Shown here: in pieces, positions 6,529 to 14,416 of the stretch
How the letters are laid out: every line of letters starts with the position of its first letter
Position numbering within the stretch: the first letter of the stretch is position 1
Virus record (IMG/VR): IMGVR_UViG_3300009075_000154
Location: 1-28,901 of that record
Reading direction: 5' to 3' (one strand)
DNA: 28,901 nt
From: a virus
Program-made: the position numbers and the translations under genes
The notes under the pieces: model-generated
What the model was told of the DNA's origin: nothing
What the model saw: the letters and a program-made list of their open reading frames with translations, nothing else
Database searches by the model: none

Positions 6529-7755
6529 TTACCTGCTCCTGAAACTATCTGTATAGACTGCATACCGTGTTGCATCACAAAGGTGGTTAAAAGCATCTAC
6601 AGGAATATTTGTTAAAACTTCTTTGCCTGTGATCAGGTCTTGGGAAGTCACAAACTTGTAATTGTCCTTTTCCTTTTCGAAGTTGTGTGAATCATCCGTG
6701 TAATAGCAGGTCAAACCCTTTACCTTGCTTATACCAGCCGCTACACTCCCCGGCCCTTTTATGGCTGACATTACTGGCAAGCCTATCGCCCTTAACTGAT
6801 TCACCATATTGGGGTCTGCCTCTGAGTAAATCACCTCACCGCTCTTGTAGCCTTTCCCAATTAAGATATCTTTAATCCTTTCGGCCGACAGACCCGGCTC
6901 ATAGGAAAGCTCCTGAACCCATATTGTTTTGAAGATTCCTGATCCACGAATCCAAATCTTGACAATGGCCGTTGGGTCATTGGTGTACCCGTAATCTATG
7001 CCATAAATAATTCGGTCATATCCATTTTTTACGATAGTTCCATCATCAAGGCGTGTTCCGTTTTTATGGTTTGGTATTTCTTGGAGGCTACATTTTTTGA
7101 AATGTCCAAATATCTTTCCTTTTATCAGTCCGGTTTTGCCACGGCTGTAAACCAGAAACATATCAGGATCGCTTATCTTTTCATAAGCCTCATGCTCCTC
7201 TTTTGTTAGAAAAGGATTATGCCTGTGGTCGGTGATGTATAGTTGGTATTGGCCATTAAATTGCTTTTCTTCTCCGGAAAGTATTTTTTCATGCACCCAA
7301 AATGCTGAAGTCGGGTTGTAATCCAGATACACTTTCTTTCTGGTTTTACGCTGGAGCTGCCAAAACATTTGGTAGGACTGACTATTGCACTCATTCATGA
7401 ATAAGCGATCTCTTTCACTACCTCTGGCATCCTGCTCATCATCGAATGCCTTGAACTCTATTATTGCTTCATTCTGAAAAGTGTATATAAGGGATGATTC
7501 ATTAAACTTTTTTACTTGGCTCTGGATATCCGGGTCACATAAAACATATCTCTGAAACGACCTCAATGCACCACCCACCAGATTCGGCCTGTCCTGACCT
7601 GTTATTGTGTTAATGCTGCCCGGGTCTTTTATAATGTCAACGGCCAGTGCTTGTAATATCGAAACAGTTTTTGCCGCATCACCACCACCCTGACAAACTA
7701 CTATTTTTTTAGGGCATTCTATCAGTTTTGTAAATAAAGGAGCGGTGGCAAGCAT
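6529..7755 (-). CDS. terL: Terminase large subunit
   Basis: A 408-residue packaging motor and nuclease, the usual length for this type. The ATPase part has a Walker A-like loop GGGDAAKT at 23-30 and a Walker B strand RLFMNE ending in glutamate 122. The C-terminal RNase H-like nuclease shows its three acidic positions in GIDYGYTND (D254), SEADPN (E312 or D314) and HLCDATRYA (D394). The Walker A loop is unusual: the classical form is GxxGxGK[ST] or GGxxSGKT, here the residues before the lysine are D-A-A. It follows the small subunit by four bases. It translocates DNA into the prohead and cuts the concatemer. Confidence 0.93.
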   Translation of the reverse strand: MLATAPLFTKLIECPKKIVVCQGGGDAAKTVSILQALAVDIIKDPGSINTITGQDRPNLVGGALRSFQRYVLCDPDIQSQVKKFNESSLIYTFQNEAIIEFKAFDDEQDARGSERDRLFMNECNSQSYQMFWQLQRKTRKKVYLDYNPTSAFWVHEKILSGEEKQFNGQYQLYITDHRHNPFLTKEEHEAYEKISDPDMFLVYSRGKTGLIKGKIFGHFKKCSLQEIPNHKNGTRLDDGTIVKNGYDRIIYGIDYGYTNDPTAIVKIWIRGSGIFKTIWVQELSYEPGLSAERIKDILIGKGYKSGEVIYSEADPNMVNQLRAIGLPVMSAIKGPGSVAAGISKVKGLTCYYTDDSHNFEKEKDNYKFVTSQDLITGKEVLTNIPVDAFNHLCDATRYAVYTDSFRSR

Positions 7756-7759
7756 TCGG

Positions 7760-8215
7760 CTATTTTATATCTTCTTCACTTTCACTTATATCAGGACTGT
7801 TTACGGTGGTGATAGGCGAAATATTAATAACTGGAGCAACAAACGCTTTTCCATCAGCACCAGTAACCTCTTGCCTTTCGACATACCCTCTTTTCTTGCC
7901 TTTTGTTTTTAAAAGAAAAATCGTTGCTGCGGTATCCTGAGCCGAAATTAAAGTATGCAGTGCGTTCTCTGCCCAATCCAAAACAAGGTCATCCAGCTTG
8001 CGGTATTCCTTTTCGTATTCAGGAAACTTCTCCAACCAATCATAGTGTGTTTGCCTCTGAATACCAATAGACCGACAGGCAATAGTTACTATCCCAAGGC
8101 TGGATTCTAAGGCCTTGAGCATCTTTCTTTGTTTTAATGTAAGTTTATGCCTCGGGTACTTTTTTCTTCCCGGTGTATCAATCACTTGATTTTCAAGGCT
8201 TTGCTGTTCTTCCAT
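7760..8215 (-). CDS. terS: Terminase small subunit
   Basis: A 151-residue DNA-recognition subunit of the packaging terminase. It has a basic N-terminus, LTLKQRKMLKALE, then a helix-turn-helix (IVTIACRSIGIQRQTHYDWL, about 42-61). A helical oligomerisation part (WAENALHTLISAQDTAATIF) and the GKKRGYVERQEVTG segment, common in small terminases, come after it. The start overlaps the folE stop by one base (TAATG), which places packaging genes in the same transcript as the 7-deazaguanine genes. This is followed directly by terL. Confidence 0.88.
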   Translation of the reverse strand: MEEQQSLENQVIDTPGRKKYPRHKLTLKQRKMLKALESSLGIVTIACRSIGIQRQTHYDWLEKFPEYEKEYRKLDDLVLDWAENALHTLISAQDTAATIFLLKTKGKKRGYVERQEVTGADGKAFVAPVINISPITTVNSPDISESEEDIK

Positions 8216-8790
8216 TATTGTACAAATTTAAAAAATTCCTGTTTAGCGGAATCATCTTCTTTGAATATTCCCATTAATTTGGTCGTAGTTGTCCAAGTAT
8301 CGTGCTTTTTCACACCTCTCATGCACATACAAAGGTGCTGCGCCTTCATTGTTACGGCCACCCCCTTCGGGGCTATTTCCTTCATTAGCCTCTCTGCTAT
8401 TTGCTGGGTGATTCGTTCTTGGTTTTGCAGCCTATTTGCATAGAGGTCAACCACTCTTGCCAATTTCGAAAGACCAACTACCTTGCCGTCCGGAATATAC
8501 GCAACTGCTGCTGTTCCAAAAAAGGGAGCAATATGGTGTTCACAAAGCGAATAGAAGGGAATGCCTGACTGAATAACCATTTCATCAATGGCGCCATCGG
8601 TAAAGGAGGTAAATTTGAATTCAGGCGGTGATAGGAATTCCCTCATGAATTTGATATATCTTCTTGGCGTATCCTTCAGCCCCTCCCTGTCAGTATCCTC
8701 ACCAAGTGACTTCAGTATTTGTTGGAAGTGCCATTCTGGTGAATTTATAGAATATTCCATACTTTGTGCTGCTGAATTGAAAGTTTCCAT
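8215..8790 (-). CDS. folE: GTP cyclohydrolase I
   Basis: The enzyme turns GTP into dihydroneopterin triphosphate, the first step of 7-deazaguanine synthesis. Signatures are clear: [12 protein letters not shown] with the zinc cysteine and histidine, [34 protein letters not shown], and [11 protein letters not shown] with the second zinc cysteine. Several starts are possible: 8808 overlaps queE by 64 bases, 8790 by 46 and 8760 by 16. None has a Shine-Dalgarno sequence, and 8790 is a compromise. In a phage with queC, queD, queE and a DpdA-like gene next to it, the role is DNA-base modification rather than folate. Confidence 0.93.
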
Positions 8791-9350
8791 ACTGGGTTCT
8801 GTTTGCATAATTCAATACAATGCTTTAGGTTCTTAGAGTTTATAGTGAATCCGTCAGAGTGTGGGCTGATCCAATAATGTTTAGCATTTACGGAAGGTTG
8901 CGGAATGTGTTGCCCTGAGTGACGGACATATCTTAATTCAGTGACCCCTTCAGGAAAATTCTTCTTTACGACATGCTCCGCTACCTTTGGAGATACACAG
9001 ATAAAGTCTATCCCTGCTGGTGCTGGCCGTAGCCCGGATGTTTCTACTGCTTGGAAATATCCTTGATCCTTGAAGAACCTTATATGCTCTTCTGTTAGTT
9101 GATCCAGAGGCTCACCGCCCGTCCACGTTATTTCACCACAACCGATTGCGTTGTTTTTTATCCACTGGATCAGTTCAGGTAATTGATATTCCTTGCCTGA
9201 TTCGTATTCAGTATCGCACATCACCCCTGACTGAAAGCATGCGTGTTTGGCACTGCACCCCTGAAGACGGATAAAGACGGTAGGCGTTCCGGCTCTTGCC
9301 CCCTCCCCTTGCAGGGAATAAAATATTTCGCTGACATTAAGTGTAAGCAT
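8745..9350 (-). CDS. queE: 7-carboxy-7-deazaguanine synthase (radical SAM)
   Basis: A 201-residue radical-SAM enzyme that contracts the ring of 6-carboxytetrahydropterin to 7-carboxy-7-deazaguanine. Evidence: the N-terminal [20 protein letters not shown] typical of QueE, three cysteines for the iron-sulfur cluster at 32, 38 and 45, the CDTEY that closes the cluster loop, and TWTGGEPL at 75-82. The cysteine spacing is C-x5-C-x6-C, wider than the usual C-x3-C-x2-C. QueE proteins are known to vary here, so this is likely a natural loop insertion. It sits between queD and folE in the operon. Confidence 0.92.
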
Positions 9351-9361
9351 TGACTTTAGTT

Positions 9362-9784
9362 TTAGAATTTATCAAGCTTGTAAGTAGCCGAACATTTTCG
9401 TGTTTCCTCTACCTTACATTCAATAAGAGTTACCCCCGTTCCTTCCAGCTCAATAGGCGCAATCACCTCAACAATGAATTTTGCAAGGTTTTCGGCTGTA
9501 GGATTAAATGAGCAGATGATAACGGTATTATCCAGTTCATAAAGAAGGTCGCAAAGTGGGTCTTTCTCCCAAACCAGAAACTTATGATCTATCCAGTCCT
9601 CCAGATACATACAGAGCTTGGACTTAATCACGGAGAAATCAATCACCCTCCCTATTGAATCCAGCTCCCCGGCACAAACGAAATGAACCCTGTAATTGTG
9701 GCCGTGCAGGTGTGCACACTTGCTTTCATGGCCATATACACGGTGGCCGCAGCTAATGTCGTGATACCTTTCTGCTGTTGTCAT
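9362..9784 (-). CDS. queD: 6-carboxy-5,6,7,8-tetrahydropterin synthase
   Basis: The 140-residue QueD converts dihydroneopterin triphosphate to 6-carboxytetrahydropterin. With the start at 9784, the zinc histidines are H14, H27 and H29 (SCGHR and LHGHNY), and the catalytic cysteine is C23. FNPTAENLA and the glutamate of VEETRKC complete the signature. An in-frame GTG six bases earlier is rejected: the ATG overlaps the queC stop as ATGA and has AAAGGGGGTG, a real Shine-Dalgarno sequence, about five bases before it, which is rare in this window. Confidence 0.93.
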   Translation of the reverse strand: MTTAERYHDISCGHRVYGHESKCAHLHGHNYRVHFVCAGELDSIGRVIDFSVIKSKLCMYLEDWIDHKFLVWEKDPLCDLLYELDNTVIICSFNPTAENLAKFIVEVIAPIELEGTGVTLIECKVEETRKCSATYKLDKF

Positions 9785-10446
9785 AACCACCCCCTTTCTT
9801 TTGCTTCGTACCAGCCCTTTGCTCTTAGGGAGGTCGCAGGGTTATCAATATCACCAAAGCCCCATTCATTTTTTTTCATTGAACCGTTGTAATCGGTTAC
9901 AGAAAGCTCAATAACGATATCTAAGCATCCAAGGTCTTTTGCAAGTTTCCATGTTTCGGCTTTTGTTAGGTACATGAGCGGAGTGTGAATACGAAAATCA
10001 CCGCCACCGATGCCCAGCGACATAGCAAGCTGTAGTGCATCAATGGTATTTCTCCGGCAATCCGGGTATCCAGAATAGTCCGTTTGGCAAACGCCAGTAA
10101 CTATATCGGTTATCCCGTTTTCGGCCGCAAAGCTCCCTGCAATGGTTAAAAACAGTAGGTTTCTTCCGGGTGTAAATGAAGCAGGGAGGGTTGGATCGAG
10201 ATAAGAGGCTTTATTATGGTCTGAGTGTTCAATCAATGAACTCTTTGCCAGCAGTCCTTTGATATCGAATAACTTGTATTCTACACCGAACTTTTCAGCA
10301 ATAATTTTTGCCTGACTTAACTCAATTACATGGCTCTGTCCATAATCGAACCCAATTGCGACAACATGGTCGAATTGTTTAACTGCCCATGCAAGGCAAG
10401 TGGTTGAATCCTGACCGCCACTAAGTAGCACAACAGCTTTTTTCAT
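9781..10446 (-). CDS. queC: 7-cyano-7-deazaguanine synthase, variant C-terminus
   Basis: QueC makes preQ0 from 7-carboxy-7-deazaguanine, ammonia and ATP. This 221-residue protein has the PP-loop SGGQDST (9-15), FTPGRNLLFL, GVCQTDYSGYPDCR and TPLMYLTKAETW. The end is odd. Ordinary QueC has a zinc site, TCYNG followed by CGxCxxC before LRAxG. Here TCYNG is TDYNG (184-188) and the region before LRAKG reads GFGDIDNPATS with no cysteine, so all four zinc ligands are gone. Either an alternative fold replaces the zinc knuckle, or this is a variant branch of QueC. The leader word CTACGCA stands before the start. Confidence 0.9.
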   Translation of the reverse strand: MKKAVVLLSGGQDSTTCLAWAVKQFDHVVAIGFDYGQSHVIELSQAKIIAEKFGVEYKLFDIKGLLAKSSLIEHSDHNKASYLDPTLPASFTPGRNLLFLTIAGSFAAENGITDIVTGVCQTDYSGYPDCRRNTIDALQLAMSLGIGGGDFRIHTPLMYLTKAETWKLAKDLGCLDIVIELSVTDYNGSMKKNEWGFGDIDNPATSLRAKGWYEAKERGWL

Positions 10447-10463
10447 GATGCGTAGTTTTAGTT

Positions 10464-10877
10464 TTATAATTCTTCTGAACCCTTTTTGAGGTATTTTGAA
10501 ATGATTTTCAGACCCCCTCTTGGAGATTGATTGACTATAACCTGAACGAATTTTGGATTTATTGCCTCAAAGACATCCAAAGCAATTTTTTTGGCCAATG
10601 TTTCGCAGTGCGCTCCGTAATCCCTGAAAGACCAAAGATAGAATTTGATTGTTTTGCTTTCCAGATAGAAATCGTTTGGCTCATATTCGATTTCAATGGT
10701 ATTAAAATCAGGCTGTCCGGTAGTGGGGCAAACTGAGGTAAATTCATCAGTTAGAACTCTCACAACTAAACTGCCAAAGTCGGCCTTCCATGGCACTCTT
10801 CCTGCCATCATTTCTTTCATTCCTTCTTCCGGGCCTCCGGGTCTTGTCATGCTTCCGTGAATTGGTATTCTGTTCAT
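10464..10877 (-). CDS. queF: QueF-like 7-cyano-7-deazaguanine reductase
   Basis: A 137-residue protein of the QueF/T-fold family. Canonical QueF reduces preQ0 to preQ1 with NADPH. The catalytic cysteine and aspartate are present as VCPTTGQPDF (C50, D57), and the NADPH-side motif is near-canonical, ESKTIKFYLWSFR (from E73). The next conserved block, normally HGDFHE, reads YGAHCE: glutamate 92 is kept but the histidine next to it is cysteine 91. The enzyme could therefore be a normal reductase, an altered one, or an amidotransferase-type QueF-like protein. It starts five bases after the dpdA-like stop. Confidence 0.85.
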   Translation of the reverse strand: MNRIPIHGSMTRPGGPEEGMKEMMAGRVPWKADFGSLVVRVLTDEFTSVCPTTGQPDFNTIEIEYEPNDFYLESKTIKFYLWSFRDYGAHCETLAKKIALDVFEAINPKFVQVIVNQSPRGGLKIISKYLKKGSEEL

Positions 10878-10881
10878 ATAT

Positions 10882-11625
10882 TTAAAGATTGGTTTCTGCC
10901 CATTGGACGTATTTTACCCACTGATTTAGATTATGCAGCCTAACGTCATATGAGGTTTTGAAAACTTTTCCATCTGGAATGAATGTTCGCTTTATACCAT
11001 CCCCGGAAAACTGCTCTACATATCCCCACCTCATCCCTGCAATCCAGCTACTACTATCAACTGAATGAAATCTTAGTTTCTTTAACCACTCAAAATGTGT
11101 TATTCCCAGCCCATGTACCTTACAGTTGTTTTTGCTGGCATCTTGAAGAAATTTTGGTATGTATCGGTAGTTTGCTTGCTTCAGGTTATCCGTTATAAAT
11201 GCACCAAAACAAACATAATCGTAATCTCTGCATATTTCAAGCCACTTGTCGTATCCTCTATTCATGTGCCAAACTGGAATACTTTTCCAACCCACCATAT
11301 CCTCCAGCTTGTTTCTGAGCCTTTCCACCTCTTTCAGCCCAATTATTTTATCTATATCAACTTCAACGTAGTTTTTTATCTGGTGTTTTTTTATGAATTG
11401 AGCATAGTCGTAGGTGTATTTTTCCCAGTCAACTGATCTGCCATCTTTACCATTTAGATACGTGAATATGCCTGAGTCCAGCATGAACTCCTTGAAATTC
11501 ATAAATGAAGTAAGAAGGTCTTTGTTGGTTTTCATGTAATGATAGGAATAGAGGCCATACAATTTACTTTTGTCGATTGTATCAATTCCGGGCGGTAGAG
11601 AAGAAAATGAAAGAAAAATTTTCAT
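10882..11625 (-). CDS. dpdA: DpdA-like DNA transglycosylase (TGT family)
   Basis: At 247 residues this is much shorter than tRNA-guanine transglycosylase (about 370) and matches phage DpdA-like proteins. The catalytic aspartates expected of the barrel fold are visible in FMLDSGIFTY (D50) and in YVEVDID (near 86-92). VHGLGITH and SVDSSSWIAGMRWG lie where the later barrel strands should be. DpdA exchanges guanine in DNA for a 7-deazaguanine. The gene overlaps the ParB-like gene by four bases (ATGA) and precedes queF, so preQ0 or preQ1 supply and insertion are made together. Substrate choice is inferred. Confidence 0.83.
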   Translation of the reverse strand: MKIFLSFSSLPPGIDTIDKSKLYGLYSYHYMKTNKDLLTSFMNFKEFMLDSGIFTYLNGKDGRSVDWEKYTYDYAQFIKKHQIKNYVEVDIDKIIGLKEVERLRNKLEDMVGWKSIPVWHMNRGYDKWLEICRDYDYVCFGAFITDNLKQANYRYIPKFLQDASKNNCKVHGLGITHFEWLKKLRFHSVDSSSWIAGMRWGYVEQFSGDGIKRTFIPDGKVFKTSYDVRLHNLNQWVKYVQWAETNL

Positions 11626-12158
11626 AAACCAAGCAACTTTAACAAACCTTCTTCATAGGTTTTTCCATGGTCAAGCAGGGCGGCTCTTACGTGTTCAATC
11701 TGTTCAACCGGAAACTTTAGTATGATTTTATCATTTGCTTTCACATCACTTTCAACGTGATCCCTGAAAAAATCATGAATATCAACATCGGAAAAGCTCG
11801 GCAGGTCTAACCCCCAATGGTTTACGTCCTCCATTTTCCATTCATTAGCAAGAGCATCGTAATCCCATTGGCCAAATGCCACGTTATCTTTTATTATGAA
11901 CTCCTTCTGCTTCTCTTCACTCAACCCTTTTGCAATGGCAACGGGAACTTCCTTCATGCCAATCTCGATTGCTGCCTTCAGCCTCATATTGCCGCCAAGA
12001 ACCACACCTTCCTCATTGGTGATAATAGGCCTAAGAGATAACATTTCCGGGAAATTTCTTAGAGACTCAACCAACTGCTTGAACTTCTCTCCTTTAATTG
12101 ATCTTGGGTTCTTTGGATTTCCTTTAAGTTTTTTGATTTCTGTTAGTACAATATCCAT
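11622..12158 (-). CDS. ParB/Srx-domain protein, possible DpdA partner
   Basis: A 178-residue protein made of a ParB N-terminal-type domain. NPKNPRS (14-20) and VVLGGNMRLKAAIEIG (52-67) are the nucleotide-binding motifs of that superfamily. The part EFIIKDNVAFGQWDYDAL and the following WGLDLP resemble ParB domains normally fused to a DNA methyltransferase, but no methyltransferase domain follows. Instead the stop overlaps the start of the dpdA-like gene (ATGA). In bacterial 7-deazaguanine DNA systems a ParB-like ATPase, DpdB, works with DpdA. By analogy this could be the DNA- or nucleotide-binding partner here. First gene of the operon. Confidence 0.78.
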   Translation of the reverse strand: MDIVLTEIKKLKGNPKNPRSIKGEKFKQLVESLRNFPEMLSLRPIITNEEGVVLGGNMRLKAAIEIGMKEVPVAIAKGLSEEKQKEFIIKDNVAFGQWDYDALANEWKMEDVNHWGLDLPSFSDVDIHDFFRDHVESDVKANDKIILKFPVEQIEHVRAALLDHGKTYEEGLLKLLGL

Positions 12159-12201: not shown

Positions 12202-12240
12202 CAAATATATGTATTTCTCAATAATTGAAACAATTCTTGT
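12202..12240 (-). promoter_or_regulatory. Candidate promoter of the 7-deazaguanine operon, with palindrome
   Basis: On the minus strand TATATTTG (12209-12202) is a perfect Bacteroidota -7 box (TAnnTTTG). An ATTG at 12234-12231 could serve as the upstream box with a 21-base spacer, slightly long. The spacer holds TCAAT-T-ATTGA (12218-12228), a perfect palindrome that differs from the one in the early promoters. It lies 44 bases before the ParB-like start and just after a terminator, so it is the natural promoter of the operon. Confidence 0.55.
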
Positions 12241-12245
12241 TATTC

Positions 12246-12271
12246 AAAAAAATAACCCGGACGAATCCGGG
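12246..12271 (-). terminator. Rho-independent terminator, TTCG loop
   Basis: On the minus strand CCCGGA, loop TTCG, TCCGGG (12271-12256) forms a perfect 6-bp hairpin followed by TTA and seven Ts. It closes the transcript that reads 17.2-12.3 kb and insulates the operon below. Between the last stop (12348) and this hairpin there are about 75 bases in which I see no gene. Confidence 0.85.
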
Positions 12272-12347
12272 CTATATGTGTCAAGGGAAACTTCGCAGGT
12301 AAACCTTAACAGTGGAATCCAAAGGTAATAAAAAATCTTCTATTTTT

Positions 12348-13609: not shown

Positions 13610-14227
13610 TTATCGGTTTCTTCTTTTCATTGACCTGAGTTGATCCTGCACCCACGATTCCATGAAACATTCTTTGCTTCTCTTGTACCTTTTGAATCGC
13701 ATATGCAGTAAAGCAATTTCTTCCAAATTATCTTCGCAAATTGTTGGCCAGATATCGAAATAAATTGTGTCGAACTTTTCTCCTTTCTCCGGCAACCAAT
13801 AAAATATATCTTCATTGATAATTTTTAATCTTGGATCATTGAACACTGAAGCAACCAGATCAATAACATCGGAATATTTTTCAACTACGATCACCTCAGT
13901 CACTTCTTTCTTTTTCAGAATGTTTTTCAATACCATTCCGATTCCCAACCCAGCGATCAACACCCTTCCTTTTGCACGATTGATAAAACCAATGTTTGTG
14001 TTGATCTCCATATCCGTGTCACTCATCATCAATTCTCCATCAACGATCAGTTTCACATAATTTCCTTTGTACACTCTCATCGAATACGGCTGTCGTGACA
14101 TTATCAATCTTAGATTAAACATTCTCGCATCCTCTTCTGAAATGCTGAACGGAATTATTTTAGCTAACCCTTTTTCTTTTCTTTCGGTGAATAATTCTGA
14201 AACACCTTTTGCTGCGAAATTTTGCAT
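13610..14227 (-). CDS. Spermidine-synthase-like SAM methyltransferase
   Basis: A 205-residue class I methyltransferase fold of the spermidine synthase type. The glycine-rich motif I is VLIAGLGIGMVLKNIL (89-104). The acidic end of strand 2 is VIVVEKYSDVID (112-123). IINEDIFYWL and FDTIYFDIW (152-160) give motifs II and IV. The protein lacks the polyamine-synthase N-terminal domain length, so a methyltransferase role on a small molecule, RNA or protein is possible. It is directly downstream of two tRNA-like genes, but no link is shown. Confidence 0.68.
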   Translation of the reverse strand: MQNFAAKGVSELFTERKEKGLAKIIPFSISEEDARMFNLRLIMSRQPYSMRVYKGNYVKLIVDGELMMSDTDMEINTNIGFINRAKGRVLIAGLGIGMVLKNILKKKEVTEVIVVEKYSDVIDLVASVFNDPRLKIINEDIFYWLPEKGEKFDTIYFDIWPTICEDNLEEIALLHMRFKRYKRSKECFMESWVQDQLRSMKRRNR

Positions 14228-14322: not shown

Positions 14323-14340
14323 CAAACCATCCGTGTATTG

Positions 14341-14416
14341 TAAGGGGAACGGGAGTCGAACCCGTACCTTGGTTTGTATCTAACGCACCAGCGTTTTCCA
14401 GTTTCGCCATCCCCTT
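14341..14416 (-). tRNA. tRNA-like gene, anticodon uncertain (TAG, Leu possible)
   Basis: On the minus strand a perfect 7-bp acceptor stem (AAGGGGA with TCCCCTT), a 3-bp D stem (GCG/CGC) with ACTGG in its loop, a perfect 5-bp T stem with loop TTCGACT and an A discriminator make a 76-base tRNA. The D arm is like that of leucine tRNAs. The anticodon arm is poor: GGT and ACC pair around 13 bases that contain T-TAG-A (leucine if read normally). There is no long variable arm as leucine would need. No CCA is encoded. Confidence 0.68.

Follow-up and report, generated by a model that had tools for sequence, protein, structure and literature searches.

The window analysed here is a 28.9-kb virus record taken at its full length of 28,901 nucleotides, which may be a fragment and which apparently comes from a Bacteroidota phage; no near-identical genome or close relative was found among the named phages of the phage collection. 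Running from position 12158 to 6529, nine minus-strand genes are arranged in the order ParB-like, DpdA, QueF, QueC, QueD, QueE, FolE, terS, and terL (Table 1), and each neighbouring pair in this run either overlaps or is separated by no more than 17 nt. The ParB-like and DpdA ORFs overlap by 4 nt, QueF and QueC lie 17 nt apart, and QueC and QueD overlap by 10 nt, while the 64-nt overlap of the QueE and FolE ORFs is shortened to 16 nt when the FolE start is placed at the ATG at 8760. These ORFs bear out the seven-gene cassette that an earlier, sequence-only reading had placed at 8215-12158, together with its tight packing and its continuation into terS and terL. The description of the operon as complete, made in the same reading, applies to the cassette but not to the genome, given that the record may be a fragment. 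A DpdA homologue is thus found together with FolE, QueD, QueE, and QueC, which is the gene combination that defines a phage 7-deazaguanine system. Also located in the window are a tRNA-Ser (aga) gene and, separately, a gene whose protein resembles spermidine synthases as well as phrog_15480 methyltransferases.

Table 1. Positions of the genes and transcription signals discussed in the text, with the matches that support them.
Feature	Position	Strand	Evidence or remark
Intrinsic terminator upstream of the operon	12245..12275	-	10-pair stem-loop, then T-run
Bacteroidota-type promoter (presumed)	12202..12233	-	TTG, 21 nt, TATATTTG; ~45 nt upstream of the parB ATG
ParB-like protein, 178 aa, probable DpdA partner	11622..12158	-	PF02195 2e-5, just below the Pfam cut-off
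DpdA, 247 aa, predicted DNA-guanine transglycosylase	10882..11625	-	phrog_887 5e-42
QueF, unimodular preQ0 reductase family	10464..10877	-	TIGR03139 101 bits, cut-off 86.9
QueC, preQ0 synthase, zinc-less variant	9781..10446	-	TIGR00364 198 bits, cut-off 150
QueD, 6-carboxytetrahydropterin synthase	9362..9790	-	phrog_2389 8e-47; C25, H16, H29, H31 present
QueE, 7-carboxy-7-deazaguanine synthase, radical SAM, cysteines Cx5Cx6C	8745..9350	-	phrog_2076 3e-22; PDB 4njg 2e-22
FolE, GTP cyclohydrolase I	8215..8808	-	start 8808 or 8760; PF01227 2.8e-64; TIGR00063 1e-60, above cut-off
Terminase small subunit (terS)	7760..8215	-	phrog_309 4e-10; same position in relatives
Terminase large subunit (terL)	6529..7755	-	PF04466 (Terminase_3) 1e-5, above cut-off; phrog_5653 2e-21
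tRNA-Ser (aga)	14340-14416	-	
Protein resembling spermidine synthases and phrog_15480 methyltransferases	13610-14227		

Upstream of parB, a strong terminator is followed by a promoter element (TTG-N21-TATATTTG), which we take to be of the Bacteroidota type on the consensus TTG-N19-22-TAnnTTTG. Between parB and terL, no convincing terminator was found on the minus strand, as the matches inside queC have no real T-run. Because the promoter comes after the upstream terminator and no convincing internal terminator follows, it is plausible, judging from these signals in the DNA, that parB to terL are carried on a single transcript, in which case one promoter would drive all of the cassette genes and read into terS and terL.

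The gene assignments are also backed by catalytic residues that are conserved. Metal or catalytic ligands are present in both QueD and FolE, with C89, H92, and C160 being invariant in the latter. QueE scores 5e-33 with TIGR04508, which is below the NCBIfam cut-off, though the solved B. multivorans QueE in the PDB is matched over its full length (2e-22), and C32 and C45 are invariant across 68 sequences. Among the relatives, some FolE ORFs are unusual in architecture: one is split by an intein-like domain (L057:11879-13834; Intein_splicing 1.6e-6, LAGLIDADG), and two have an N-terminal extension of ~100 residues without a Pfam match (L003:10784-11650 and L012:10132-10965). QueF, at 137 aa, keeps C50, D57, E73, and E92, which agrees with the defining features of a unimodular QueF (Cys55, Asp62, Glu97, and Glu78 in B. 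subtilis, and a length of <200 aa) (PMC5372742). The protective Cys99 of B. subtilis is missing from the window QueF, and a cysteine is found three residues earlier instead.

The window QueC retains the ATP loop and substrate-pocket motifs (SGGQDS, YGQSHVIE, PGRN, YPDC, and Y186), and with these the canonical signature of SGGxDS, YxQxHxxE, VPxRN (here as TPGRN), YPDC, and the zinc-region tyrosine, motifs that have been reported as essential (PMC13329287), but it does not have the canonical zinc motif C(x)8CxxCxxC, whose four cysteines are replaced by D185, D199, N202, and T205. All four zinc cysteines are missing in 44 of the 70 QueCs in our set (the window and 43 of 69 relatives), and many of these zinc-less proteins carry a DYNG-NEWG-NPAT-like replacement. 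Such a recurrent motif suggests, at the level of sequence, that this is a functional zinc-less form of QueC.

For DpdA, the predicted model (pLDDT 92.5; alignment of 59 sequences) has tRNA-guanine transglycosylases (TGTs) as its best solved folds (E 3e-6), with generic TIM barrels intermixed lower down, and a sequence search of the PDB gave no real match. D50, S51, H171, D190, and S191 do not vary across 91 sequences. Here, H171 is aligned with H187 of CAjan DpdA, and we infer that both are equivalent to His196 of 9g. Having the TGT fold and the conserved histidine that DpdA2 lacks, the protein is placed with the 9g/CAjan-type DpdAs and not with DpdA2. Two related cassettes (L112 and L114) each contain two DpdA-like ORFs, either in tandem or with QueF between them. 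As for the ParB-like protein, its model (pLDDT 86.7) finds the N-domain of ParB/Noc proteins as best folds, and PF02195 is matched at E 0.01 by 55 of the 61 proteins in the alignment; Gly56 and Arg59 are among its conserved residues. It does not match the DpdB profiles: in PADLOC it matched only the N-terminal portion of a model for type II methyltransferases, and in Pfam only PF02195.

To gauge how widely this arrangement occurs, we draw on a viral profile scan that gave 80 loci (55 clusters at 70% DpdA identity) and on a second scan, run on genomes of bacteria and archaea, that gave 58 loci, which were not dereplicated and of which the closer ones were counted; relatives were picked by DpdA similarity, and the linkage counts thus describe this DpdA subfamily only. 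In 48 of 49 viral loci, the gene immediately upstream of DpdA is ParB, and TerL lies within 7 kb downstream in 31 of 39. Much the same is seen in the closer host-genome loci (39 of 40 for ParB, and a TerL nearby in 21 of 31), with the host-genome loci as a whole spanning Bacteroidota, Firmicutes, Synergistota, an Archaeoglobus MAG, and others. Chance was rejected as an explanation both for the cassette, whose gene order is found again in dozens of divergent contigs, and for its placement near the terminase (31 of 39 against an assumed 20%; P ~2e-15, a value that is overstated, as the loci are related). Conserved far beyond the window phage, the terminase linkage is therefore no accident. Moreover, most of the ParB, DpdA, QueF, QueC, and FolE proteins of close relatives are 42-71% identical to those in the window, against ~30% for TerL and, in some, ~33% for TerS. 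With the cassette genes so much more alike than the terminase genes, the modification genes are therefore either conserved or moving as a unit that lands upstream of the terminase.

The base-making genes are less constant. The full set of four preQ0 genes is found in 30 of 45 viral loci and QueF in five of 45, and several loci consist of ParB-DpdA and TerL only. Four viral loci have a glutamine-amidotransferase-QueC (Gat-QueC) fusion in the QueC position (L025:3364-4557, L074:7120-8307, L088:2698-3885, and L089:4477-5664), for which the predicted product, going by gene content, would be dG+. The final step of the cassette is thus swappable between QueF, none, and Gat-QueC, and this pattern suggests that the ParB-DpdA pair near the terminase is the stable core, with the base-making genes coming and going.

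Taken as a whole, the window cassette is very likely a phage anti-restriction cassette for 7-deazaguanine DNA modification. Phage DpdA acts on DNA, and in other phages this chemistry protects the DNA from restriction (PMC6884629). The core of the sequence-only reading, namely a phage route from GTP to a 7-deazaguanine along with a DpdA-type inserting enzyme, is well supported by the profiles, the conserved residues, and the DpdA model. As the bacterial queuosine route also runs from FolE to QueF, the same genes might instead provide the host with queuosine for its tRNA or with folate, in which case tRNA would be the substrate of DpdA, yet we find this highly improbable: none of the 91 DpdA relatives has the CxCxxC portion of the TGT zinc motif, the 247-aa protein is shorter than the TGTs it matches in fold (350-390 aa), and among the annotated relatives are CAjan and further phages whose DNA modification has been measured. 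A tRNA role for DpdA was rejected on the missing zinc motif and the gene context. ParB-like genes are common near terminases, and the one in the window could likewise be a packaging-module gene that adjoins dpdA only since both precede the terminase. The distance correlation of ParB with TerL (r 0.35) equals that with DpdA (r 0.34), a weak signal in which the ParB-DpdA pair is not singled out. However, ParB and DpdA are kept together away from the terminase in Cellulophaga phage phi38:2 and Fusobacterium phage phiFN37, a DpdC homologue comes next after the pair in phiFN37, and proteins with a ParB domain are found alongside other DNA-modifying enzymes of phages as well (PMC12783734), all of which makes a packaging origin unlikely. 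We thus consider it probable that the ParB-like protein is a partner of DpdA, and that it is DpdB-like in role though not DpdB by profile; the ParB gene of mycobacteriophage CRB2 has already been proposed as a DpdB homologue (PMC6392294). The gene after the phiFN37 homologue of DpdC/DUF6884 (L014:12454-12888) is annotated as a queuosine precursor transporter, and the arrangement there resembles DpdA-B-C in a phage form.

A closer call concerns the final base, for which the sequence-only reading had named preQ1 and not preQ0. This remains the likeliest base because QueF keeps its four defining residues (Cys, Asp, and both Glu), and we lean towards dPreQ1 as the main product, as is carried by phages with QueF-family genes such as Dp-1 and HVTV-1 (PMC6884629). 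Still, just ahead of the second Glu the sequence is not that of the phages in which dPreQ1 has been measured. All eight QueFs of the window's group read HCE at this motif, as opposed to FHE in Dp-1, Pan1, and R5C and SHE in HVTV-1, so the histidine that precedes the Glu in these four phages is replaced in the window. QueF and QueF-L follow a common route to the thioimide and diverge only afterwards (PMC5485725), and the end step varies in the relatives, most having no QueF and four having Gat-QueC. A working cassette with a different final base is accordingly a lesser but not negligible prospect, whether the altered QueF makes another derivative (e.g., dG+ by amidination, like QueF-L) or is inactive and leaves dPreQ0. 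Speaking against this, the QueF score exceeds the QueF-II cut-off, and the match to B. subtilis QueF is far better than that to QueF-L (1e-19 versus 0.003). The FHE-to-HCE change, along with the loss of the QueC zinc site, could also mean a lower or altered activity.

We would thus picture dPreQ1 modification by the cassette as follows. FolE, QueD, QueE, and QueC would take GTP to preQ0, QueF would probably reduce this to preQ1, and DpdA, a TGT-type enzyme that is short and lacks the TGT zinc motif, would then put this base in place of guanines in the phage DNA after replication. For the ParB-like protein, the probable role is that of a nucleotide-dependent factor that binds DNA and either loads DpdA or chooses where it acts, which is the part that DpdB has in bacterial Dpd islands. 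With a promoter shared with terS and terL, modification would then probably be late, on DNA about to be packaged. The terminase linkage reaches far beyond the window phage, but the proposal in the sequence-only reading that modification is timed with packaging is one we put forward tentatively, at somewhat less than an even chance. Similar genes are found in other modules in Dp-1, CAjan, HVTV-1, and phi38:2, and packaging linkage is therefore no requirement of the chemistry. More speculatively, and rather doubtful as a full account, ParB and DpdA might together be a dedicated two-part machine for exchanging DNA bases, in which ParB would use a nucleotide to act as a clamp or to pick the sites. 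Placed upstream of the terminase, the pair would mark DNA that is about to be packaged; the base-making genes would be extras that can replace one another, and both the HCE QueF and the zinc-less QueC would be functional variants adapted to the cassette. Either way, a proven phage anti-restriction chemistry is extended to a large and mostly uncultured phage group in many host phyla, and two questions are opened to testing, namely what determines where and how heavily phages modify their DNA with 7-deazaguanines, and whether modification is tied to late gene expression. The literature that we searched, whose coverage is incomplete, made no mention of the breadth of ParB-DpdA-terminase conservation or of a zinc-less QueC, and we claim no priority for either.

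Compared with known systems, the window cassette shares with the bacterial Dpd island (DpdA-DpdB-DpdC) a TGT-type enzyme and a ParB-superfamily partner, DpdB being described there as a ParB-like ATPase (PMC12839542). In contrast, the island DpdB is DndB-like (PMC11888242), and complete islands also contain the restriction genes dpdD-K. Streptococcus phage Dp-1, in whose DNA dPreQ1 has been measured, similarly has QueF, QueC, QueD, QueE, FolE, and DpdA in one operon, but no ParB was found beside its DpdA, replication genes follow instead of the terminase, a transporter gene is present, and its QueF and QueC are of the canonical FHE and zinc-site kinds. Cellulophaga phage phi38:2 resembles the window in its Bacteroidota host, its DpdA-ParB pair, and its QueF, QueC, QueD, and QueE, although these genes are interspersed with others in the replication module, DpdA precedes ParB, and the two DpdAs are only ~26% identical. 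The closest layout is that of Mycobacterium phage Knocker and other cluster B phages (CRB2 and kin), where ParB, QueF, DpdA, QueC, QueD, QueE, and FolE are followed by the terminase, all co-oriented. Here, the differences are that DpdA is only ~23-25% identical, that an adenylate kinase and another gene intervene, that gene 1, annotated as ParB-like, has DUF6610 as its Pfam match, and that QueC keeps the zinc site. Since Knocker carries almost the same set of genes next to its terminase, and in almost the same order, the window cassette belongs to a known kind.
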